A stretch of DNA of 64,000 nt from Pseudanabaena sp. FACHB-1998 (lineage in GTDB: Bacteria; Cyanobacteriota; Cyanobacteriia; Pseudanabaenales; Pseudanabaenaceae): contig NZ_JACJQA010000045.1 in assembly GCF_014696355.1 (NCBI RefSeq), forward strand, positions 62,001 to 126,000. The letters are read 5' to 3'. This document shows positions 7,890 to 63,240 of the stretch, one piece after another; within the stretch, counting starts at the first letter, position 1; each line of letters opens with the position of its first letter. The notes beneath the pieces were generated by a model, which was given only the letters and a program-made list of their open reading frames with translations, searched no databases and was not told the DNA's origin. The position numbers and the translations under genes were made by a program.

Positions 7890-8090
7890 TATAGCTATAA
7901 CCAGTCTTGTTACTCCCTTCTCACTCAAGAAATAGCTATGCGCGGCTTCGCCGCGCATAGCTATTTCTTGGTTTTATATGTATATTTCTTCGGTGGGAAG
8001 GGAGTAGGACACAAAGCCCAAGAAGAGAGGGGCGGCGCTTCGCGCCGCCCCTCTCTTCTTGGGCTTTGGTAATGCAAGTCACTACAGCTA
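7890..8090. repeat. Type A MITE-like element carrying a nested type B element
   Basis: The outer ends are TATAGCTATAACCAGTCTTG at the left and a right end reading (reverse complement) TAGCTGTAGTGACTTGCATT. Both match the ends of the uninterrupted type A copies at 37206-37318 and 63244-63357. The inner core is a 27-bp stem with a TTC loop (8012-8068). Between CTTG and AGGACACAAA, which are contiguous in the copy at 37206-37318, this copy has an additional ~96 bp: the type B element. It fills the gap after the last glycosyltransferase. A 76-codon reading frame across it is an artefact of the palindromes. Confidence 0.75.
7911..8006. repeat. Type B palindromic element (nested)
   Basis: The ends are TACTCCCTTC and GAAGGGAGTA, perfect inverted repeats. 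The core is a 21-bp stem with a TTC loop (7926-7970). Related copies with the same ends lie at 33357-33452 and 60727-60811. The TA at each end could be the TA target duplication typical of IS630/mariner-mobilised MITEs (inference). Confidence 0.65.
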
Positions 8091-8100
8091 CCTATCAACT

Positions 8101-8190
8101 CACGAAAGTGTGACAACACTTTTGTGAATCAAAAAGCCGATCCAGCAAGGTTTTTCAAAACTAAAAAATGGCACAGCCATTTTTAGTTTT
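8101..8190. repeat. Type C double-hairpin repeat
   Basis: A hairpin around CACGAAAGTG/CACTTTTGTG is followed by an AAAAAGCCGATCCAGCAAGG spacer and a second hairpin with AAATGGC-ACA-GCCATTT. The same arrangement recurs at 47717-47819. It directly adjoins the type A element. Confidence 0.6.
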
Positions 8191-19185: not shown

Positions 19186-22100
19186 ATGACTACCTCGACT
19201 CCATCTGCCAGTTTTAGCTATCATGTCGGCGGAAGCCTTGCTGTAGATGCGCTTGCCTATGTAGAACGACAAGCAGATCTGGAGATATACGAACGCCTCA
19301 AAAAAGGTGAATATTGCTTTGTATTTAACTCTCGGCAGATGGGCAAATCGAGCTTGCGGGTAAGAGCTATGCAAAAACTACAGCAAGACGGGGCTATCTG
19401 TACGGTAATCGACCCGCAAACGAGGGGAACGACTTTGCGCGAAGACCAATGGTACGCGGGAACCATCAAGCGCTTGATTGGTGATCTACACCTTGAGGAA
19501 CACATCGACTTCTTGAAGTGGTGGAAAGAACTGGATGCTCAATCGATTTCGGTAGTGGAAAGATTTTATGAGTTTATTGATAGTGTGTTACTGCCCCACA
19601 CTACGAGAAAAATCATCATTTTTGTGGAAGAAGTCGATAACCTACTCAGTCTAAAGTTTGACACCGATGGCTTTTTTATTTTGATTCGCTCATTATATGA
19701 ACGTCGTGCCGAAAAGCCTGAATACAATCGACTCACATTTGCTTTTTTGGGTGTGGCTACCCCCTACGATTTAATTCGGGGTTTAGATCGATCTTCTTTT
19801 AATATCGGTCATCCTATCGAGATGAGTGGATTCCAATTGTATGAAGCAAGCCCACTTATTCGAGGATTGGAAGGAAAGGTAAGCGATTCGCAAGCGATTC
19901 TACAAGAAGTTCTCTATTGGACAGGCGGACAACCATTTTTGACGCAGAAATTATTGAATTTAATATTACAGAATGTAGACTTTTCAAAGTCCGCAAAGGA
20001 TTTAGTGGAACAATCTGTCTATTCCAAAATTATTGACAATTGGGAAGCGCAAGATATGCCAGCCCATTTGAAGACTATTAGGGATAGGATCTTGCAAAGC
20101 GATGAGAAAGTGCGGGGACGATTGTTAACGTTGTATCAACAGATTCTAGATCTTGATGGCATAGCGGCGGATGAGAGTGGCGAACAGATGCAGTTGCGCT
20201 TAACTGGGTTAGTTGTTAAGAAAGATGGAAAGTTGATGGTTTATAATCCCATCTATGCAGCAGTATTTAATCGCCTATGGTGTGATCATTCGTTAGCAGA
20301 TTTGAGACCATCTTTCTACGCAGAAGCTTTGAAGGCATGGCGAGAAGAAATTGAAGAACAAAAAATATCTTTTTTACTACGAGGACAAGCGCTAGAGGAT
20401 GCTGAGGCATGGGCTAATGGTAAAAGATTAGGCGATGAAGATGAGCAGTTTTTGCGTGATAGTCGGGAGATGGTAAAGTTAGAAAATAATCTTAGGTTAG
20501 AGTCAGAACAACAGGCAAGAGAAGTAGCGGAAAAAGAACGATTGATTGCTCAAAAGCATCAAGAAATTGCCGAGGAAGAAGTCCGAATCTTGGGAGAAGC
20601 CAATCAAAAAGCCAATCTCCGAGTGCGCGTTGGCTCAGCCGTATTAGGATTGACACTTGTTTTAGCTGTGGGTGCAGGAGTTTGGGCTACTAAGTCAGTA
20701 AAAGAAGCAAAAGTAGAGGTTATTGCGACAAAGAATGATGCCCAAGCTAAAGTGCAAGATGCGAACCTTGCGGTGGGAGATGCCCAGAAACAAGCTGAAG
20801 CAATTCGTAAAGACTCTAAAAAAGAGAAACAATTGGCAGCACAATCAGTTAGGGAAGCTCTAGCAAAGCGGAAAGAAGCGGAATTAAGAGTCGAGCAGGA
20901 ACAAAAGAATTTGGAAGCCGCTAAGTCGGAGTTAGAGAAAGTATCACAACAATCTTTAGCGCAGGTGGCGATCGCCCAAGCGAAGATAGTCGATGCAGAG
21001 ACAAAAGTTAAGGAAGCAAAGCAAAAACTAGAACAAGCCGATCGCGATGCAGCCTTGACAAGTACGCTTGCTGACGTACGTCTAAAAAGCATAGATGCTA
21101 AAGGTGATTTTAAGGTAGGAAAAGATTTTGATGCTTTGGTGCAGTCTGTAAATGCAGGACATAAGCTACAGGAAGTAGATCGATTACTCTGGTCTAAAAA
21201 CAATACCCAAATGCTGCTGATATCCAACTTGTCGCAGTTAGTTTATGGGGTCAAAGAAAAAAATCGATTTTCTCATACAGATCCTGTCATGAGTATCGCC
21301 TATAGTCCCGACGGTAGGACAATTGCCACAGGTAGTGGGGACAATACTGTAAAATTGTGGAGCTTAGAGGGTAAAGATCTGCAAACTTTCAAAGGGCATA
21401 GCGATCCCGTTGTTAGCGTCGCTTTTAGTCCCGACGGCAAGACGATTGCTACGGGTAGTGGGGACAATACCGTGAAATTGTGGAGCTTAGACGGTAAGGC
21501 AATACATACTCTCAAGCATACCGCCCCTGTCTGGAGTGTTGCTTTTAGTCCTGATGGTAATACAATTGCCACGGGCAGTTTTAATAGTAACTTGAAGTTG
21601 TGGAGTATAGACGGTCGGGAACTGCAAACTTTCAAAGGTCATAGAGGATCTGTCCGCAGTGTCGCTTTTAGTCCCGATGGTAAGACTATCGCTACGGGTA
21701 GTGAAGACAACACTATGAAATTGTGGAATATAGATGGCAGAGAACTAAAAACCTTCAAAGGTCATAGTGCAACAGTATTTAGTGTTGTCTTTAGTCCTGA
21801 TAGCCAAATAATTGCCACAGGTAGTGGGGATAATACGGTGAAATTGTGGAATATAGATGGGAGGGAACTACAAACTTTTAAAGGTCATAGTGACCTTATC
21901 AATAACGTTGCCTTTAGTCCTGATGGCAAAACAATCGCTTCAGGTAGTGGGGACAATACGGTGAAATTGTGGAATATAGATGGGAGGGAACTACAAACTT
22001 TTAAAGGACATATTGCAACTGTCTATAACGTTGCCTTCAGCCCTGATGGCAAAACAATTGCTTCCAGCAGTGCGGACAATACCGTAAGGTTATGGAGCTT

Positions 22101-23073
22101 AGATACTAAGGAAATTCTAACCTTCAAAGGGCATCCTAAACCAGTCTATAGCGTTGCTTTTAGTCCCGATGGCAAGACGATTGCCAGTGGTAGTGATGAC
22201 AGTACCATGAAATTGTGGAGCCTAGATGGTAGGGAACTACAAACATTTAAAGGGCATAGCTCAACTGTCTATAGCGTGGCTTTTAGTCCCGATGGTAAAA
22301 CTATTGCCACAGGTAGTTTTGATAATACTGTGAAATTGTGGAGCCTAGATGGTAGGGAACTGCAAACCTTCAAAGGACATCCTAAACTAGTCTATAGTGT
22401 TGCTTTTAGTCCCGATGGCAAGACAATTGCGAGTGGTAGTGATGACAGTACCGTGAAATTGTGGAGCCTAGATGGTAGAGAATTACAAACTTTTAAAGGG
22501 CATAGCTCAACTGTCTATAGCGTTGCCTTCAGCCCTGATGGTAAGACAGTTGCGAGTGGTAGTGATGACAGTACCGTGAAATTATGGAACCTAGAGGGTA
22601 GGGAACTACAAACCTTCAAAGAGCATAGCTCAGCCGTCTATAGCGTTGCTTTTAGTCCTGATGGTAAAACTCTTGGCACGGGTAGTTTTGATAATACTGT
22701 GAAGTTGTGGAGCCTCAACAGCAAAGAAGTTCAAACCTTTAAAGGGCATATCGCCCCTGTCAGAAGTGTCGTTTTTAGCCCCGATAGCAAGACCGTCGCT
22801 ACGGGTAGTGAAGACAATACGTTAAAATTGCTGAGTCTAGATGGCAAGGAACTACAAACTTTTAAAGGGCATAGCGCACAGGTCTGGAGTGTTGCTTTTA
22901 GTCCTGATGGCAAAGCGATCGCTACAGGTAGTTATGACCATACTTTAAAATTGTGGGATTTAAATTTTGACAACCTGATGACTAAGGCATGTGCATGGCT
23001 AAATGACTATCTCTCTAATAACCCCAACGCCACAGAAAGTGACAGACAAATGTGTAGCATCACAAAGCGTTAG
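19186..23073 (+). CDS. AAA-like ATPase, coiled coil, membrane helix and 14 WD40 blades
   Basis: A 1295-residue protein. Residues 1-370 are an AAA_35-type ATPase with P-loop RQMGKSS (50-56) and Walker [10 protein letters not shown]. An acidic helical region leads to one membrane helix (about 480-502), then a charged coiled coil (about 505-635, Lys/Glu/Ala-rich). Residues about 699-1275 hold fourteen 41-residue WD40 repeats, each with [13 protein letters not shown] and KLWSLDG, enough for two seven-bladed propellers. The tail (ACAWLNDYL) is common in cyanobacterial WD40 ATPases. It probably senses a ligand or partner through the propellers. Neighbouring blades are nearly identical at DNA level. 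Confidence 0.92.
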
Positions 23074-32251: not shown

Positions 32252-32365
32252 TATAGCTGTGGTCACTTGCATTAAGACAAATCAAAACCCCAGAAGTGAG
32301 TTGCGGCGCTTCGCGCCGCAACTCACTTCTGGTTTTGTGTCCTAATAAGAATGGCAACAGCTATA
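32252..32365. repeat. Type A MITE-like element, copy 1
   Basis: Starts TATAGCTGTGGTCACTTGCA and ends in ...CAGCTATA, with a core hairpin at 32284-32338 (GGCGC-TTC-GCGCC tip, one bulge). The left end is identical over its first 24 bases to copies at 37206 and 63244, while the right end is more diverged. Confidence 0.75.
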
Positions 32366-32413
32366 GCAAAGCTTAGGGCGGCGCTTCGCGCCGCCCTAAG
32401 CTTTGCTATAGCT
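32359..32413. repeat. 26-bp perfect stem containing a stop codon
   Basis: AGCTATAGCAAAGCTTAGGG... pairs perfectly with its complement around TTC. It overlaps the end of the type A element and contains the stop codon of the LD-carboxypeptidase gene. Confidence 0.8.
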
Positions 32414-37205: not shown

Positions 37206-37318
37206 TATAGCTGTGGTCACTTGCATTAGGACAAATCAAAACCCAAGAAGCGAGTTGTGGCGCTTCACGCCGCAACTCGTCTTCTGGTTTTGTGTCCTCA
37301 AGACTGACCAAAGCTATA
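37206..37318. repeat. Type A MITE-like element, copy 2 (reference copy)
   Basis: 113 bp. The left end TATAGCTGTGGTCACTTGCA and the right end, read in reverse complement as TATAGCTTTGGTCAGTCTTG, are imperfect terminal inverted repeats. The core hairpin has GAAGCGAGTTG/CAACTCG(T)CTTC arms and a GGCGC-TTC-type tip. The right end encodes the last six residues and stop of the cupin gene. Confidence 0.8.
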
Positions 37319-37717
37319 AAGAACTACATTCTCTTGTTCGTTAGGATCATTTCGAGAAACGATCGCATGGGCGGCTTCCGTATCACTGAGATTGTGTGGT
37401 TGATGTGGCACACCTGCGGGAATAAAAATAAAATCACCAGCCTCATTGATCACCGATTGTCTCAAGCCTTCACCATAGCGAGTTTCGACTTTCCCCTTCA
37501 CCAAATAAATCGCTGTTTCATAATCTCGATGGAAATGGGGTTCCGCCGCTCCACCCGCAGGGATAATCACTAAATTCATCGATATCCCCTTGGCCCCCGC
37601 CGTTGCCCCCGAAATACCAACAAAATATGGCAATTTTTGCAAGGTAGCGGTTTCGCGATCGGGTCGCACGGTAATGATTTGGCTCGAATAATCAGGCAGA
37701 GGTTCAGCATTAGTCAT
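37298..37717 (-). CDS. Small cupin-domain protein
   Basis: Start put at the ATG at 37717, with AGGTAA just upstream; the frame is open nine codons further. The 139-residue protein is a single cupin barrel: motif 1 AEPHFHRDYETAIYLVKGKVETRYG (two His, Glu) and motif 2 GDFIFIPAGVPHQPHNLSDTE. These residues can bind one metal ion. Similar small cupins include sugar-modifying and dioxygenase-like proteins, but no reaction can be assigned. The C-terminal YSFGQS and stop are encoded by the end of a type A repeat. Confidence 0.88.
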   Translation of the reverse strand: MTNAEPLPDYSSQIITVRPDRETATLQKLPYFVGISGATAGAKGISMNLVIIPAGGAAEPHFHRDYETAIYLVKGKVETRYGEGLRQSVINEAGDFIFIPAGVPHQPHNLSDTEAAHAIVSRNDPNEQENVVLYSFGQS

Positions 37718-37744
37718 CGTAGTTACCTGTGATTTGTTATGCAC

Positions 37745-47693: not shown

Positions 47694-47839
47694 TATAGCT
47701 CTAGTTTTATGTCCTGATACCAAATCACGAAAGTGCGGCAACACTTTTGTGATTTAAAAACCAAATCCAGTAAGGTTTTTAAAATGAAGAAATGGTGTAG
47801 CCATTTCTTCATTTGGTATGACTAGGATGGCTACAGCTA
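47694..47839. repeat. Type A ends enclosing a type C double hairpin
   Basis: The outer ends are TATAGCTCTAG...TCCT and AGGATGGCTACAGCTA. The inside (47717-47819) is bounded by ATACCAAAT/ATTTGGTAT and contains two hairpins (AAATCACGAAAGTG/CACTTTTGTGATTT and AAATGAAGAAATGG/CCATTTCTTCATTT) separated by a CCAAATCCAGTAAGG spacer. The type C part matches the copy at 8101-8190. Confidence 0.7.
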
Positions 47840-52100: not shown

Positions 52101-54642
52101 AGTTGAGGCAGTGGAGACGGGGGAGAGATTACAAAAAAATGCGATCGTCTCTCCTGATACCAAGATCCGTGTAATTACCTCTATCCAAGAAGTTGTCTAT
52201 GCCATGCAAGAAAAAAATCGTCTTCTTGGGAATAACGGTTTTGTCACAAGCATATCTTTTAGTCCCGATGGCAAGACTATCGCCTCTGGCAGTTCTGACA
52301 ACACTATTAAATTGTGGAGTCTGGAAGGCAAAGAACTCCAAACCTTCAAAGGGCATAGCGCTATTGTATGGAGCGTCGCCTTTAGTCCCGATGGCAAGAC
52401 GATTGCCTCTGGTAGTAGGGACGCAACTATTAAGTTGTGGAATTTGGAAGGTAAAGTACTCCAAACCTTAAAAGGACATAGCGGATTGGTCGCAAGCGTA
52501 GCTTTTAGTCCTGATGGCAGTACTTTAGCCACAGGGAGTTCTGATCGCACCGTCAAATTGTGGAATCTGGAAGGCAAAGAACTTCAAACTTTCAAAGGGC
52601 ATAGCGATAGTGTCTGGAGTGTAACCTTTAGCCCCGATGGTAAGTCTATTGCTACTGGCAGTGATGACAGAACAGTCAAGTTATGGAATCTTGAAGGCAA
52701 AGAACTTCAGACCTTCAAAGGGTATAGCGATAGTTTCCCTAGCTTAGCCTTTAGTCCTGATGGCAAAATGATAGCTACTATTGGTAATAATACGGTCAAA
52801 TTGTGGAATCTGGAAGGTAGAGATCTCCAAATCTTTAAAGGGCAGATTAATGATATCTGGAGGATTGCCTTTAGTCCCGATGGTAAAGCTATCATTACAG
52901 GAGATTTGAACGGAGGCGTTAAATTGTGGAATCTGGAAGGTAAAGAAATTCAAGCTTTCAAAGGGCATAGTGCTAGTATCTGGAGTGTTGCCTTTAGTCC
53001 CAATGGCAAGGTGATCGCCACTGGTAGTTTTGACAGAACCGTCAAATTGTGGAATCTTGAACCCAAAGAACTTCCAACTATCAAGGGGCATAGTAATGGT
53101 GTTAGTAGCATAGCTTTTAGTCCTGATGGTAAAATCATTGCCACTGGTAGTTGGGATAACATTGTAAAACTGTGGGATTTAGACGGTAAAGAAATCCAAA
53201 GCTTAAAAGGGCATAGCGATAAAGTCAATAGTGTAGCTTTTAGTCCCGATGGCAAGACGATTGCCTCTAGCAGTTGGGACAACACTATTAAATTGTGGAA
53301 TCTGGAAGGCAAAGAATTCCAAACTTTTAAAGGACATAATAGTGGTGTTAATAGTGTAGTCTTTAGTGCTGATGGCAAAAATATTGTCACAGGAAGTGAT
53401 GATAATACTATTAAGTTGTGGAATCTGGAAGGCAAAGAACTCCAAACTTTCAAAGGACATAACAGTGGAGTCATCAGCGTCGCCTTTAGTCCCGATGGAA
53501 AGAAGATTGCCTCTAGCAGTTGGGATAACACTGTCAAATTGTGGAATCTGGAAGGCAAAGAACTGCAAACTTTTAAAGGGCATAGCAATAGTGTTTATGG
53601 CGTAACTTTTAGTCCTGATGGCAAGACTATCGCCTCTAGCAGTTCTGACAACACTATTAAATTGTGGAATCTGGAAGGCAAAGAACTTCAAACTTTCAAA
53701 GGGCATAGCGCTGTTGTATGGAGCGTCGCCTTTAGTCCCGATGGAAAGAAGATTGCCTCTGGTAGTAGGGACAACACCATCAAATTGTGGAATTTGGAAG
53801 GAAAAGAACTCCAAACTTTCAAAGGACATAGCAGTAGTATCAATAGCGTAGCCTTTAGTCCTGATGGTAAAACCATTGCCACAGCAAGCGCTGACAAAAA
53901 GCTCAAATTGTGGAGTTTAGATTTAGAGCGTCAGAAGGGACTTGGCTGCTACTGGTTGCAAGACTACATTGCTACAAATCCAGACTTACGACAAAAACTA
54001 GCAACTTGTCGCGATCCTCAAATCCTAAAAGCGGCGGCTCCTGCCCTAGTTGCCGAGGCAAGAACTAAAGGGATGATCGGCAAACCTGAAGTTGCTCTAT
54101 CACTATTTCAGGAAGCAAAGAAATTAGATAGTAGTATTGCCCTCGATCCACAAACAGAGATTAACCCTTACTTTATTCCTAAAGGTGAACGCTTAGCGAG
54201 AGAAGGCGATATCAAGGGAGCTGTAGTTGCTTATGAGGAAGGCATCAAGCGAAATCCAAATATTCAAGTCTCAGCCGATTCGTGGAATACACTTTGCTGG
54301 AATGGCAGTTTATACAAGTCAGCAAGTCAGGTTATTTTTGCTTGCGATAATGCCGTTAATCTGGAACCCAATAATCTCTTTTTTTACAAAAATAGAATTA
54401 TAGCAAAAGCACTTGCAGGTGATAGAAATGGTTCAATTGCTGAAATTGAAAGTTCTCTCTTAAAAATTTATCGAGAGAATCTTGAAAAAATGCTCTCAAT
54501 TAGAGCTAGAGATTATGTATATCAATATACTTTCTCAGAACATCAAGGATGGCTAGAGGAACTAACGGAGGGCAAAAATCCATTTACCGATGAGAAGTTA
54601 GAAGAATGGCGGCAACAGGCGAAAAAGGATAAAGATTCTTAA
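49141..54642 (+). CDS. Giant STAND NTPase with TPR-like, membrane, 14xWD40 and C-terminal TPR parts
   Basis: An 1833-residue protein. Residues 1-190 are a cyanobacterial N-terminal domain without a P-loop (LLLARCNYQDLRDRL...PIIWWISD...APDFESW). About 210-490 are TPR-like helices. The STAND NTPase has GKSGVGKSSLV (518-528) and a Walker B ending IFDQFEEF near 641; a 55-residue insert encoded by a DNA repeat lies between them. A winged-helix part and one membrane helix (about 935-958) follow, then fourteen WD40 blades (about 1032-1595) and a TPR tail. It probably oligomerises on ligand sensing. Several blades are almost identical at DNA level. AAGG precedes the ATG. Confidence 0.92.
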   Translation: MGNTSNQASENISSDNKELLQELSMTLELYEDEFKLLLARCNYQDLRDRLITHLKEIHPQAIYEIKLPRSQKDLYSYIMAQVRSETPKVLSIVGLNELEDLHAALLDINLNREMFRNNCPYPIIWWISDSTHKRIIRTAPDFESWTTTLEFPIDTDELLTSLHDGSEALFSHVLEPSKIPFFKKLGEIDQLGSLQCSELEIALKDLSDRGLNIEPKLQANLNFIRGLDALPPSSSPKKALEYLQASLTYWQLVADFERSGLLLNQIGELNYQITDAEKNRPPEWNIARSAFQASIEFFEKANRPDLLADVILRLVMTAKRMDDWDAMESLVQKALPLHLEFHNAYHLALDHRYLAEIAIRKQDWESARTQAKMALSFLTQVPEANQEWRNLYLSTIAETEIRLGNDREGLQLLLEARELGDTGHPKVNIAFLIELRSLYTRQKQYLEAFVTKQEQFAIEQQYGYRAFIGAGRLQGKKSVGKSQTDVATEIEASGRKHDLDELITRIAKPSYKMIVLYGKSGVGKSSLVNAGLIPKLEHTSFEGRDVCAIAMRVYTNWEEELEKALKPLTPQPPLPMESKALTPQPPLPWGKGETDSLSIDKESENEVLLPSPSGRGAGGEGIIAKLREKESQNFRLVLIFDQFEEFFFVYYNQPTERRRFFEFIGKLLNDSQNLSSLKVVLSLREDYLHYLLECNQIESMAAIDQDILSKNVLYRVGNLKVEAAKSLIQTLTQKSRFYLEPELIGAIADDLKDELGEVRPIELQVVGAQLQQEGIKTLEQYRLLGANPKATLVERYLNDVIVDCGEENQRLAKFLLFMMTDERGTRPLKTRVELEKDLHDLLTEMQGDTSALDLVLEIFVRSGLVVLIPESPLDRYQLVHDYLAEFIRASQAPEMAKLQQELMETRETLKQTVDRLSVAVKDEEAAKFKARGRSRLAFGVGIVASVMAVGAGIASFIALKSSVDSKFISDSYKMVSLLNGNLQLEALVEAVETGERLQKNAIVSPDTKIRVITSIQEVVYAMQEKNRLLGNNGFVTSISFSPDGKTIASGSSDNTIKLWSLEGKELQTFKGHSAIVWSVAFSPDGKTIASGSRDATIKLWNLEGKVLQTLKGHSGLVASVAFSPDGSTLATGSSDRTVKLWNLEGKELQTFKGHSDSVWSVTFSPDGKSIATGSDDRTVKLWNLEGKELQTFKGYSDSFPSLAFSPDGKMIATIGNNTVKLWNLEGRDLQIFKGQINDIWRIAFSPDGKAIITGDLNGGVKLWNLEGKEIQAFKGHSASIWSVAFSPNGKVIATGSFDRTVKLWNLEPKELPTIKGHSNGVSSIAFSPDGKIIATGSWDNIVKLWDLDGKEIQSLKGHSDKVNSVAFSPDGKTIASSSWDNTIKLWNLEGKEFQTFKGHNSGVNSVVFSADGKNIVTGSDDNTIKLWNLEGKELQTFKGHNSGVISVAFSPDGKKIASSSWDNTVKLWNLEGKELQTFKGHSNSVYGVTFSPDGKTIASSSSDNTIKLWNLEGKELQTFKGHSAVVWSVAFSPDGKKIASGSRDNTIKLWNLEGKELQTFKGHSSSINSVAFSPDGKTIATASADKKLKLWSLDLERQKGLGCYWLQDYIATNPDLRQKLATCRDPQILKAAAPALVAEARTKGMIGKPEVALSLFQEAKKLDSSIALDPQTEINPYFIPKGERLAREGDIKGAVVAYEEGIKRNPNIQVSADSWNTLCWNGSLYKSASQVIFACDNAVNLEPNNLFFYKNRIIAKALAGDRNGSIAEIESSLLKIYRENLEKMLSIRARDYVYQYTFSEHQGWLEELTEGKNPFTDEKLEEWRQQAKKDKDS
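50839..51002. repeat. Palindromic DNA repeat inserted in frame in the STAND gene
   Basis: Two direct copies of a CCCTCACCCCCCAGCC...CTCTCCCA unit (50839-50865, 50879-50904) face one inverted copy (GGGAGAGGGGCTGGGGGTGA..., 50980-51002). A small inner hairpin, AGATTCTTT/AAAGAATCT, lies at 50922-50949. The translation (LTPQPPLP twice, then PSPSGRGAGGEG) is low-complexity. The repeat type is otherwise known as an intergenic cyanobacterial sequence. Confidence 0.85.
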
Positions 54643-56601: not shown

Positions 56602-56681
56602 TATAGCTATCAGTCATGTTAAGACACAAACAAAATCCCAAAAGAGAATGGCGGCGCAAAGCACCGCCACTTTCTTTTGGG
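56602..56681. repeat. Partial type A element with hairpin core
   Basis: The left end TATAGCTATCAGTCATGTTA is followed by AAGACACAAA and a hairpin (56637-56681, CCCAAAAGAGAATGGCGGCGC with mismatches). A recognisable right terminal repeat is missing. It truncates the BrnA-like copy and lies 15 bases before the end of argZ. Confidence 0.65.
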
Positions 56682-56695
56682 ACAACTCTAGAAAC

Positions 56696-58813
56696 TTAAA
56701 CCGCGATCGCCACAGGACTATCGAGCTTTTTGAGTTGCTGGACTAGTAGGCTCAAGAACAAGCCAACATCGGTAACAACACCAACGGATTCTACAGATCC
56801 GCGATCGGCTAGCTTAGTTACCACCGCAGGATTGATATCGACACAGACCATCTTCACGCCTGCGGGAGTCATGTTACCCACACCGATGGAATGGAGCATT
56901 GATGAAAGCATCAAAATCATGTCTGCACCACGAATTTGTTCGCTGTAAAGGCGTTGAGCTTCGAGTAAATCCATTACCGTGTCAGGTAAAGGACCGTCAT
57001 CACGAATGGAACCTGCCAGTACAAAGGGAACATCATTCTTTACACATTCGTACATTACGCCAGTCTTCACAAAACCAGCTTCAACTGCCTTGTGAATGCT
57101 GCCATAGCGACGCACAGAGTTAATCACCTTCAAGTGGTGACGATGTCCGCCCTTAACGCTCACCCCACGCTTAAGATCGACACCTAGGGAAGTTCCCATC
57201 GAGGATTGCTCCATGTCGTGAACAGCGATCGCATTACCACCAAGCATCGACTGCACATAGCCTTCACGAATTAAGTAAGCTAGGTGAGGAGCGCCGCCAG
57301 TATGTACGACAACAGGACCACAGGAGACAACTAATTTGCCACCGCGATCGCGAATTTGACGTAGTTCCCATGCGATTTGCTCGACCACGAGTTCGACACG
57401 ACGTTCGCTAGATACACCCGCGCCCATGAAGGAAAATTCTTCTTTCTTGGCAGTGTCTCTCGCTTCAGGCTTACGCACAGTCCGTACGCCATCATAACCA
57501 ACTACCACGCGATCGCCTACGACGAGATCACGCAAAAGCTTACAGGTCGCCGTTTTACCATCAGGACTAATGGCGATCGCGGCATCCATACGCTGATTAG
57601 TACAACGAATCCATTCGCCATCGACACAGGCATCGGTAGGATAAATCGTCGATACATAGAAATCATCGGGAGCGACTCCATCTTGCAAGACTGCCTCAAG
57701 ATTTGCAGCACAGGTCTCACGATCTTGTAAAACTGCACCGATTTCAATCAATTCACCCATGATGGTTTCCATGAGGTCATGGGATGGGGCAGAAATACGG
57801 ATTCTGGCTAAAGAAGTGCTTTGTCTTTGTTCGCCAAGATTAAATTCTAATACTTGGAAACTCCCACCATTATCAGTTACCAAATCAAGGGCGCGATTGA
57901 TGATGCCAGAATCTAGCAAATGTCCTGTCAACTCGACAATTCTGGCTTCGACACCGCCTTGTTCAATGGCTTTGTCACTGCTGTCTGCGGTAATAGGAAC
58001 TTCAATAGTTCTCAAAGTTAAGCATTTTGCTGCGCCACCTGCTTTGAGGAACTCCGTTAAAGGAGTTTCGATGACATTAAAACCTGCATTGGTAATGCGT
58101 TGTTTTAAGCGATCGCTGATTTTATTCATCACCACATTGCGATCGACGTTGACCGCATTGCAAGCAAAGTTAACAGCATCGGCTTCTTCGATCGCAATCC
58201 GCTTGTCCGCAGGCACACGCATCTCGATTAAGCGATTAGAGTAGGAGTCAAAGGCGGGAGGGTAGTACAGCAGATAGCCGCCTGTAAGCGGACAGAAGCA
58301 AGTATCAAGGTGATAAAAGCGATTGTCAATTAAACGCAATGACAACACCTCAACATCTAGCCATTTTGCTAAATAAGGATGGGCATCAAGCTCAGAGCGG
58401 AAGCCATAGCCTGCCCATAACCAACCACCACTGCGATCGAATAAGGCATCGCCAGCACCTTCAAAGGGCAAATCCTTGGGCAATTCGTAAACTGTAAAGC
58501 CCTTAGACTCAAACCAAGCTTTGAAATAGGGTTCTTCGCCTTGACGCTCTTTATGTAAAAAACGGCTTAATACTGCCTTGTCACCTAATACGAGTCCAGC
58601 GTTTGCGGTGAATACCATGTCTGGCCAGCCCTTCTCAGGTGTCACTAGCTCCACATTGACTAAACCCTTAAGGACTCCATATAGTTTTTGCCATTGCTCC
58701 ACAGCGCGATCGCGGCTAGATTTGTGAACGTTGCCTTCCATCCAAGGGTTGATCACATAATCTACATCGTAGTGATCAGGGGCACACATCAAATAATTCA
58801 GTTGGGCAGTCAT
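56696..58813 (-). CDS. argZ: Arginine dihydrolase / ornithine cyclodeaminase-type protein ArgZ (AgrE)
   Basis: Start at the ATG at 58813 (MTAQLNYLMCAPDHYDVDYVINPWMEGN), as in known homologues, rather than the TTG 17 codons upstream. The resulting 705 residues match the family's length. The N-terminal guanidine-modifying domain (1-270) has FEGAGDALF and catalytic Cys264 in KAGGAAKCLTLRT; it converts arginine to ornithine, ammonia and CO2. The C-terminal LOR/SDH-type domain (about 290-705, with SCGPVVVHTGGAPHLAYLIREGY) corresponds to the ornithine cyclodeaminase part of AgrE, giving proline. It serves cyanophycin nitrogen mobilisation. Confidence 0.95.
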   Translation of the reverse strand: MTAQLNYLMCAPDHYDVDYVINPWMEGNVHKSSRDRAVEQWQKLYGVLKGLVNVELVTPEKGWPDMVFTANAGLVLGDKAVLSRFLHKERQGEEPYFKAWFESKGFTVYELPKDLPFEGAGDALFDRSGGWLWAGYGFRSELDAHPYLAKWLDVEVLSLRLIDNRFYHLDTCFCPLTGGYLLYYPPAFDSYSNRLIEMRVPADKRIAIEEADAVNFACNAVNVDRNVVMNKISDRLKQRITNAGFNVIETPLTEFLKAGGAAKCLTLRTIEVPITADSSDKAIEQGGVEARIVELTGHLLDSGIINRALDLVTDNGGSFQVLEFNLGEQRQSTSLARIRISAPSHDLMETIMGELIEIGAVLQDRETCAANLEAVLQDGVAPDDFYVSTIYPTDACVDGEWIRCTNQRMDAAIAISPDGKTATCKLLRDLVVGDRVVVGYDGVRTVRKPEARDTAKKEEFSFMGAGVSSERRVELVVEQIAWELRQIRDRGGKLVVSCGPVVVHTGGAPHLAYLIREGYVQSMLGGNAIAVHDMEQSSMGTSLGVDLKRGVSVKGGHRHHLKVINSVRRYGSIHKAVEAGFVKTGVMYECVKNDVPFVLAGSIRDDGPLPDTVMDLLEAQRLYSEQIRGADMILMLSSMLHSIGVGNMTPAGVKMVCVDINPAVVTKLADRGSVESVGVVTDVGLFLSLLVQQLKKLDSPVAIAV

Positions 58814-60811: not shown

Positions 60812-60912
60812 TATAGCCATAAAAAGTTTGCCTAGGATATAAAACCCAAAATAAAAGTGGCGGCGCGAAGCCTCACCACTTTTATTTTGGGTTTTGATTT
60901 GTCCTAGCTATA
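60812..60912. repeat. Type A-like element upstream of ilvE
   Basis: Left end TATAGCCATAAAAAG...CCTAGGA, right end TCCTAGCTATA. The core hairpin (60841-60895) has AAAACCCAAAATAAAAGTGG arms and a GAA tip. Its right end lies about 35 bases before the ilvE start, so the ilvE promoter must overlap it or read through it. Confidence 0.6.
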
Positions 60913-61963: not shown

Positions 61964-63240
61964 AGGGAAACCGCACACGTTCATGAATAAATAGTGAAAG
62001 AAAGGAAGCAAAGTAAAATAACCAGTATAAATTAAAAGCCCCAAAGTGCCATGTCTTATAGAATCAGCCCAACCGCATTAATTGAGACTCATTTTGGCAA
62101 CATACGAGACCCCAGAGCATCGCACAGTATCGAACATAAGCTATTAGACATACTAATAATCAGCATTTGTGGAACAATTAGCGGAGCAAACGATTTTGCC
62201 GCAATAGCAGAATATGGAAAATCAAAGGAGAACTGGCTAAAGACATTTTTGGAACTAGAAAATGGCATCCCATCGGCAGATACATTTGAGAGAATATTCG
62301 CTCGACTGAAGCCAATAGAATTACAAAAATGTTTTATAGGATGGATGGAAGCAGTCCATAAGATAACAGACGGAGAATTGCTAAATATTGATGGTAAAAC
62401 CTTGAGAGGAGCCAAGGAAGCAGGTAATTCTCGTAGTCTGATTCATATGGTGAGTGTTTGGTCAGCAACACAGCATTTGGTGCTAGGTCAAAAGCAAGTG
62501 CATGAGAAATCAAATGAGATAACAGTGATCTCACCATTGCTAGAAATGTTGGCTATTCGAGGATGTTTGGTGAGTATCGATGCAATGGGATGCCAGAAAG
62601 AAATAGCAAAAACGATCATTGAACAGGGAGGGGATTATGTATTAGCGCTCAAAGGTAATCAGGGTAATCTCTATGATGATGTACGGCAATTATTTACATC
62701 CGCCCGTGTACAGGAATTTCATAATATCGAACATCAGTTCCACTCAACGATAGAAAAGGGACATGGGCGGATTGAGAAGAGAGCCTATTGGACTATGGGC
62801 AATACAGAATTCCTTATTGGTGCAGAGAAATGGACAGGGTTGAAAAGTATTGGCATGGTTGAGTCAGAACGCAATGTGCAGGGAGTAGTTTCTATTGAAC
62901 AGCGATACTATATTCTCAGTATTGACAGTGATGTTTACAGGTTCTCTCAAGCAGTTAGAAGTCATTGGAGTATTGAGAATCAACTGCATTGGATTCTTGA
63001 TGTTGCTTTTGATGAAGATGCTTCTCAATGTTGTCGAGGCTATAGTGCTGAAAACTTAGCTGTTATTCGTCATGTTGGCTTAAATTTACTTTCCCGTGAC
63101 AAAAAAACTAAAGTTGGAGTTAAGACTAAACGCCTTAAGGCTGGTTGGGATGACAACTATCTTAAGGATATCCTTGCTGCCTTAAACATAGTCTCCCTCT
63201 AGGCTTCACTATTTATTCATGAACGTGTGCGGTTGCCCTA
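61964..63240 (+). mobile_element. ISAs1-family insertion sequence, complete, 1277 bp
   Basis: Terminal inverted repeats are CAGGGAAACCGCACACGTTC at the left and, in reverse complement, TAGGGCAACCGCACACGTTC at the right. They continue to about 36 bp (61964-61999 and 63205-63240) with two mismatches. A 10-bp target duplication (GGTTATAGCT) flanks both ends, within the 8-10 bp usual for ISAs1. It contains one intact transposase gene, so it looks recently active. Confidence 0.92.
62051..63202 (+). CDS. ISAs1-family transposase
   Basis: A 383-residue DDE transposase. The N-terminal part SPTALIETHFGNIRDPRASHSIEHKLLDILIISICGTISGANDFAAIAEYGKSKENWLKTFLELENGIPSADTFERIFARL is the DDE_Tnp_1-associated region typical of ISAs1. 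Catalytic acids are the Asp in LLNIDGKTLRGA, the Asp in LVSIDAMGCQKEIA, and the Glu in RSHWSIENQLHWILDVAFDEDAS. Length fits the family, and there is no frameshift or stop, so it is probably functional. Confidence 0.95.
   Translation: MSYRISPTALIETHFGNIRDPRASHSIEHKLLDILIISICGTISGANDFAAIAEYGKSKENWLKTFLELENGIPSADTFERIFARLKPIELQKCFIGWMEAVHKITDGELLNIDGKTLRGAKEAGNSRSLIHMVSVWSATQHLVLGQKQVHEKSNEITVISPLLEMLAIRGCLVSIDAMGCQKEIAKTIIEQGGDYVLALKGNQGNLYDDVRQLFTSARVQEFHNIEHQFHSTIEKGHGRIEKRAYWTMGNTEFLIGAEKWTGLKSIGMVESERNVQGVVSIEQRYYILSIDSDVYRFSQAVRSHWSIENQLHWILDVAFDEDASQCCRGYSAENLAVIRHVGLNLLSRDKKTKVGVKTKRLKAGWDDNYLKDILAALNIVSL

Follow-up and report, generated by a model that had tools for sequence, protein, structure and literature searches.

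A TA-inserting MITE family of Pseudanabaena with a palindromic core that appears to be rewritten in place

Type A elements in the window and in the genome

The window, by which we mean the whole 64-kb stretch of DNA that was analysed, contains three good copies of a short MITE, here called type A, together with core hairpins, several relatives and a cupin-domain gene. The features are as follows, with scores in bits referring to a covariance model for which 20 copies from the genome were used, among them the three of the window (L014–L016).

7890..8092, minus strand: type A copy, interrupted by a nested element; its right half gives 44.3 and 47.2 bits
7911..8006, no strand assigned: second element (CTCCCTTC...GAAGGGAG), nested in the 7890 copy and flanked by TA at either end, as read from the sequence
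32252..32365, plus strand: type A MITE copy (L191); 131.8 bits, perfect 20-bp core stem, TTC loop
32290..32332, no strand assigned: core hairpin of the 32252 copy, a perfect palindrome with 20-bp arms and a TTC loop
32359..32413, no strand assigned: palindrome adjoining the 32252 copy, with 26-bp arms; its left arm starts within the MITE end (AGCTATA), which is mirrored on the far side
37206..37318, plus strand: type A MITE copy (L202); 123.8 bits, unequal arms (the LR state described below); its first and last two bases are the duplicated TA
37298..37744, minus strand: cupin-domain gene (Pfam Cupin_2, 1.4e-13), which takes its last five codons and its stop from the 37206 MITE
56602..56714, minus strand: weak MITE relative; 25.1 bits, E 0.00067
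60812..60912, minus strand: diverged MITE relative; 43.9 bits
63244..63357, plus strand: type A MITE copy; 119.8 bits, perfect 27-bp core stem, GAA loop
63275..63331, no strand assigned: core hairpin of the 63244 copy, a perfect palindrome with 27-bp arms and a GAA loop

The original prediction, made from the letters of the window, had placed three copies at 32252, 37206 and 63244, and both their coordinates and their ends are confirmed. Its list of further copies and relatives fares less evenly. The split element at 7890 is a type A copy, and the elements at 60812 and 56602 are weak and weaker relatives, respectively; a fourth candidate, 47694-47839, has no covariance-model match up to E 0.5 despite its TATAGCT-like ends, and its inside is a different repeat from type A. 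The GGCGC-TTC-GCGCC tip said to be kept among the copies is found, with up to one mismatch, at 11 sites of the window, compared with 0.04 on average after shuffling; in the 37206 copy it is imperfect (GGCGC-TTC-ACGCC). Treated as single-stranded DNA, the three window copies fold strongly (z -11.7 to -13.7), and in an Rfam scan of the window no family reaches its gathering threshold. Palindromes are common in the window beyond the MITEs: there are 19 perfect ones with arms of at least 14 bp, 7 of them with TTC or GAA loops, compared with none in five shuffles.

Type A elements are a MITE family. They measure about 115 bp, too short to encode a transposase, and have imperfect terminal inverted repeats with TATAGC...GCTATA ends. 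In the genome examined (4,775,075 bases in 64 contigs), the left end occurs 124 times at three or fewer mismatches, versus once for a reversed control. The covariance model yields 149 genomic matches, which after removal by hand of 12 opposite-strand repeats represent at least 137 places, a lower bound because 150 of 3625 candidates were scored. The best matches to a flanking glucokinase gene lie on contigs of Pseudanabaena, most probably the genus of the host. Of 291 genomes sampled from the class, 26 have matches when strict filters and a cut-off of E 1e-9 are applied: 25 from Pseudanabaena, the host included, and one other (G161). Among the matches listed for this sample, G005, which belongs to the same genus as the host, is absent.

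Detailed analyses cover 106 of the 137 places; the 31 omitted are mostly the weakest, and five secondary matches of 70-79 bits (in L007, L012, L019, L187 and L216) are also left aside. By a crude count of gene context, based on ORFs of at least 80 codons, 45 of the 106 copies lie between tandem genes, 23 between convergent and 22 between divergent genes, 9 inside an ORF and 7 at an edge. Convergent positions thus account for 23 of the 90 copies classified by gene orientation, versus 8 of 39 in the intergenic background of the window, which is no clear excess. Copies are therefore not visibly concentrated at convergent gene ends, as far as these crude ORF calls can tell, and the earlier remark that they are not simple terminators stands. 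At six loci (L184, L217, L241, L255, L264 and L266), the predicted end of a gene overlaps a type A element by 5 bases, so that its stop codon, TAG at L241 and L266, sits in the element's end.

When the copies are compared with each other, distance at the left end does not correlate with distance at the right (r -0.008, p 0.55), and a similar left end goes with the same right-end subtype less often than in shuffled data. The family is star-like or shuffled.

Other repeats were met along the way. One, abundant and hairpin-rich, has ends TACCAAAT...ATTTGGTA and is found at L030 and, in the window, at 47718-47818 and 8093-8159; it has relatives in several Pseudanabaena loci, and type A elements are inserted in it. 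The element nested at 7911 represents a third type, with similar sequence in L001, L064 and L169. A further MITE, type B, combines the ends TATAGCAA...GCTTAGGA with a core nearly like that of type A, and is seen at L012, L030, L028 and possibly at 60812-60912 of the window; L028 seems to unite the left end of type A with the right end of type B. Type B has a candidate partner in a second IS630 group (TATAGCAAAGAAAGGGATAGTTAGGAC). Finally, two genes of the window, at 21283-22932 and 52240-53889, contain long tandem repeats of 123 bases (41 codons); we take them to be putative WD40-like genes.

Insertion at TA and the candidate mobiliser

Insertion of type A duplicates a TA dinucleotide. For 70 of the 106 copies, those with TA at both borders, the flanks were joined with one TA kept, and the joined sequences were used to search for empty sites. 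A match across the junction was obtained for 25 of the 70 elements, and seven of these are convincing by eye (L182, L186, L192, L018, L214, L202 and L022). The elements at L182, L186 and L192 are inserted in a dispersed repeat, uninterrupted copies of which read approximately ...TTTTGTGATT-TA-AAAACC..., with a single TA; the empty site for L182 is 98.8% identical over 81 nt. The other junction matches are further, weaker matches in the same dispersed repeat, palindrome matches or self matches.

The 37206 copy of the window has an empty counterpart with one TA in Pseudanabaena sp. UBA1465 (L119; 73% identity over 67 nt, E 6.9e-08). On the gene side of this alignment 32 of 40 positions are identical. 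The far side, with 15 of 25, is the weaker half of the match, that level being reached by 5 of 20000 shuffles. In four Pseudanabaena loci (L111, L112, L116 and L117) the cupin gene ends in NPNIE or NPNID; in the window it ends in SFGQS. The SFGQS ending and the stop come from the MITE. By inserting at 37206, the element thus doubled a TA and gave the gene a new end. For two other gene-end sites, L266 and L241, the comparison took in 25 and 23 relatives, respectively. In the lines listed, no type A end falls at the corresponding base of a relative, and divergence downstream is too great to place an empty site to the base. In four relatives at these sites (L289, L290, L320 and L334), another element that starts with TATAG lies within about 50 bases.

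The best candidate for a mobiliser is an IS630-type element, IS-A. A PF13358 profile search of the genome returns 11 matches, and the IS-A transposase (DDE_3, PF13358, E 4.2e-39) lies between ends of the form TATAGCTG...TAGGAC. Its stop codon falls inside or beside the right end, TATAGCTGTCGCCAAGTGTATTAGGAC, of which seven examples are identical; six left ends (TATAGCTGCCGCCAAGTGAAATAGGAC) are seen, one with a single base change. Left and right ends lie near contig borders, as expected of a collapsed multi-copy element. The multi-copy version is broken at contig ends, and the full-length reading comes from a degenerate, frame-shifted copy of 953 bp in contig C47, which has TATAGC at both ends.

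Compared over 27 positions, the left end of the MITE agrees with the IS-A ends at 22 and 20, versus 13-16 for six other IS630 ends. The right ends of the MITE agree with IS-A at 20-21 and 17-18 of 27, versus 13-17 for the other IS630 ends, and the left end found in species G010 reaches 24/27 in comparison with the IS-A ends. This likeness is imperfect and limited to the terminal 27 or so bases. On the strength of these ends, it is likely that the IS-A transposase moves the type A MITE in trans. It is also conceivable, if rather unlikely, that a different transposase is responsible, such as one from another IS630 subgroup lost from the host genome. The inexactness of even the best IS-A match in the host points that way, as do the relatives G010 and G024, where 18 left ends each are accompanied by transposases only distantly related to that of IS-A (best identity 28% and 33%) and hence by no close IS-A; against it, none of the compared IS630 ends matches the MITE better than IS-A does. 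A different mobiliser would be compatible with the explanation of the core given below, and its odds overlap with those of that explanation. The transposase at 62051-63202, beside the 63244 copy, was set aside as mobiliser, being of the DDE_Tnp_1 type and not IS630.

The original prediction had taken the elements for non-autonomous mobile elements, a view it was prepared to give up in the absence of empty sites and of copies elsewhere, and it had proposed a search for a transposase with matching ends. Empty sites with a single TA and at least 137 places in the genome are the opposite of what would have spoken against it, and the proposed search leads to IS-A. That interpretation is supported, and it gains a wider setting as a genus-wide repeat tied to an IS630 element.

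Arms and loop of the core palindrome

The core arms have two unequal forms, CCCAAGAAG-CGAG on the left and, reversed, CCAGAAGACGAG on the right. Grouping close variants with their form, we find the state LR in 31 of the 106 copies, LL in 37, RR in 12 and RL in 1, with 25 unclassified or half-classified. LR is also the state of eight copies fetched from G010 (of 18 left-end matches there), all of which have unequal arms, with five TTC and three GAA loops; LR is therefore probably the ancestral arm state. In the LL and RR forms one arm has been replaced entirely, with a one-base shift of the register. A stem free of mismatches and 18 bp or longer is present in 48 of the 106 copies, and these stems comprise 42 different arms.

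Many changes in the two arms mirror each other. Counted over 13 inner pairs in 100 copies (6 of the 106 were dropped), double changes are mirrored in 81 cases and unmatched in 8, and one-sided changes number 36 on the left and 33 on the right. Shuffling leaves 9.5 mirrored double changes in place of 81, an excess that is overstated, since the shuffling ignores relatedness among copies. The loop reads TTC in 47 of 100 copies, GAA in 36 and something else in 17, and GCGAAGC is present on one strand in 71 of the 106. Loop state and perfected arms show no association (Fisher p 0.31). Nor does loop or arm state track the similarity of the outer ends, a comparison that is uninformative here because its positive control, the correlation between left-end and right-end distances, failed as well. 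In 12 of the 106 copies, a palindrome overlaps the MITE border by at least 6 bases; at L191, the 32252 copy with its adjoining palindrome at 32359-32413, and at L209, the mirrored stretch takes in the MITE's own end.

A second view of the loop comes from G037, a genome of another family of the class. It carries a MITE with a similar left end (19 identical left ends) and another interior, perhaps a distant relative of type A; in G037 the type A covariance model finds no match. Two of the 19 matches were dropped, L352 because it is cut and probably the same place as L353, and L346 because it is a hybrid. The 17 readable loci have 11 GAA and 6 TTC loops. Apart from the loop, 16 of the 17 have 0 to 4 differences from the consensus, and L343 (TTC) has a deletion. 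This MITE is evidently young, and its loop flips among nearly identical copies; at L354 the inverted spacer is the sole difference from the consensus. TTC and GAA loops are each found whether or not site 68 is changed, and the same holds for the mirrored pair 38/60 (L342, L348). A single ancestral inversion could not have produced these combinations, which need recurrent inversion or exchange between copies. Arm changes in G037 are mirrored in L055, L342 and L348, and one-sided in L347 and L348. G037 has five PF13358 matches, and no TATAGC-like motif listed around them matches the end of its MITE. At L340, beside the G037 MITE, TATAGCGACAGCCACATTGGTTAGGACG resembles an IS630 end of the IS-A type.

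The cores thus show arm homogenisation together with loop inversion. In yeast, template switching between inverted repeats is reported to give just these two outcomes, with GAA/TTC spacers among the examples (PMC8604942), and a study of RNA genes describes compensatory change combined with loop inversion as the strongest possible support for the model, and as extremely rare (PMC8794818). Because the pattern matches this published signature, we attribute it to template switching, and propose the following. A MITE of about 115 bp inserts at TA, duplicating it, and would be moved in trans by an IS630-type transposase. At its centre lies a quasi-palindrome with, usually, a three-base spacer and a G+C-rich tip that mostly reads GCGAAGC on one strand; the tip would help single-stranded DNA to fold, and may be the trigger. 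The GCGAAGC fragment is known as an ultra-stable DNA mini-hairpin with a Tm of 78 C (PMC4686876). After insertion, DNA synthesis would repeatedly switch template inside the palindrome. One arm would be copied onto the other, so that private changes become mirrored and the stem is perfected to varying extents, and the spacer would sometimes be inverted, from TTC to GAA or back. We put the probability of this joint account, a TA-inserting, IS630-mobilised MITE whose core is rewritten in place by template switching, at roughly 0.78.

Other routes to such cores must be weighed. If the element is a MITE whose core variants are subfamilies from several masters, or products of recombination or gene conversion between copies, one would expect certain arms to recur, and one does: AGAAGCGAGTTGCGGCGC is found in 12 of the 48 perfect copies. 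Exchange would also yield all four G037 combinations and could mimic recurrent flips, and the left and right ends of type A look unlinked. Yet the number of distinct full arms among the perfect copies leaves few donors for private mirrored variants, and G037 copies that are otherwise identical differ in the loop alone, which makes this origin improbable. A little less probable still is that mirrored arm changes are compensatory mutations in a MITE under selection for an RNA or DNA hairpin. Such selection would account for the strong covariation of core pairs and accords with the strong single-stranded folding of the three window copies, but it predicts single steps, not replacement of whole arms with a register shift, and predicts neither the lone loop inversion of L354 nor the palindromes of L191 and L209 that mirror the MITE end outside the element. 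Nor is an inverter of the entire core likely, as it would make RL cores, of which there is one among the 106. REP and IS200-IS605 palindromes have no long terminal repeats and no target duplication, and type A, with its long ends and TA duplication, is not one of them. That the copies are no transposon at all, but dispersed terminators, processing hairpins or REP-like palindromes, would fit their hairpin cores and few gene overlaps (9 of 106, by the crude ORF calls), and is highly improbable given the defined ends of a unit of about 115 bp, the contradictory single-TA empty sites and the convergent count, which shows no clear excess.

Rewriting of the core by template switching would also supply what the original prediction did not see, a reason for the change. 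Fixed ends around a changing core invite a reading as exchange of cargo; here it looks instead as if arms are matched to each other and loops inverted within a core that stays in place. A bolder form, which we advance tentatively and would sooner doubt than adopt, is that the core is a self-maintaining module: the GCGAAGC tip would trigger the switching at such a rate that the stem would stay perfect and the loop would drift toward 50:50 without selection on each base, and MITEs of different cyanobacterial families that carry such a tip would exploit this. If so, the loop orientation of each copy would serve as a natural reporter of switching events at the replication fork. More generally, one palindrome at more than 100 sites, apparently rewritten in place, amounts to a replicated natural experiment on bacterial template switching, loop inversion included. 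Given a mapped origin, the family could reveal the winning arm and the strand on which it wins.

Comparison with known systems

Nezha is another cyanobacterial MITE, and our literature search found no paper on MITEs of Pseudanabaena. As a mobile element, judged by its ends and insertion sites, type A is an IS630-type MITE like RUP of Streptococcus pneumoniae, which is related to IS630-Spn1. RUP measures about 107 bp, has 110 copies and shares with type A the IS630-like ends, target duplication and folding; it differs in sequence and host, and in being overrepresented between convergent genes, as type A is not visibly (PMC3049150). The portion of that account available to us makes no mention of loop inversion or arm homogenisation, in contrast to what is seen in the type A core (PMC3049150). 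Correia repeat enclosed elements of Neisseria, for which a form of 104-108 bp exists, have ends TATAG[CT]GGATTAA...AGGAC in two of four published patterns (PMC2649163). The same TATAGC and subterminal AGGAC recur in the left end of type A and in the IS-A and IS-B ends; the rest of the sequence and the host differ, and the mobilising mechanism of the Correia elements is given as not determined (PMC2649163). Closer in host are the MITEs of Anabaena sp. 90, which resemble type A in being cyanobacterial, mostly 100-300 bp long, largely intergenic (132 of 147), structured and in some cases gene-disrupting; they are reported without likeness to the IS ends of that genome, whereas type A has an IS630 element with similar ends (PMC3542288). 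The main text of a 2024 review of prokaryotic MITEs contains neither 'IS630' nor 'hairpin' (PMC10969869).

The movement of type A is therefore ordinary, and it is the fate of its centre that is unusual. No description of a MITE family with a repeatedly homogenised and inverted core was found in the literature searched, most subscription journals being outside its scope, and evidence for novelty is accordingly weak. The closest parallels to the core are the quasi-palindrome template switches of yeast and of RNA genes, which likewise combine arm homogenisation with spacer inversion (PMC8604942, PMC8794818). Those switches are described at scattered sites, with loop inversion plus compensation a rarity, whereas type A presents about a hundred dispersed copies of one palindrome (PMC8604942, PMC8794818).
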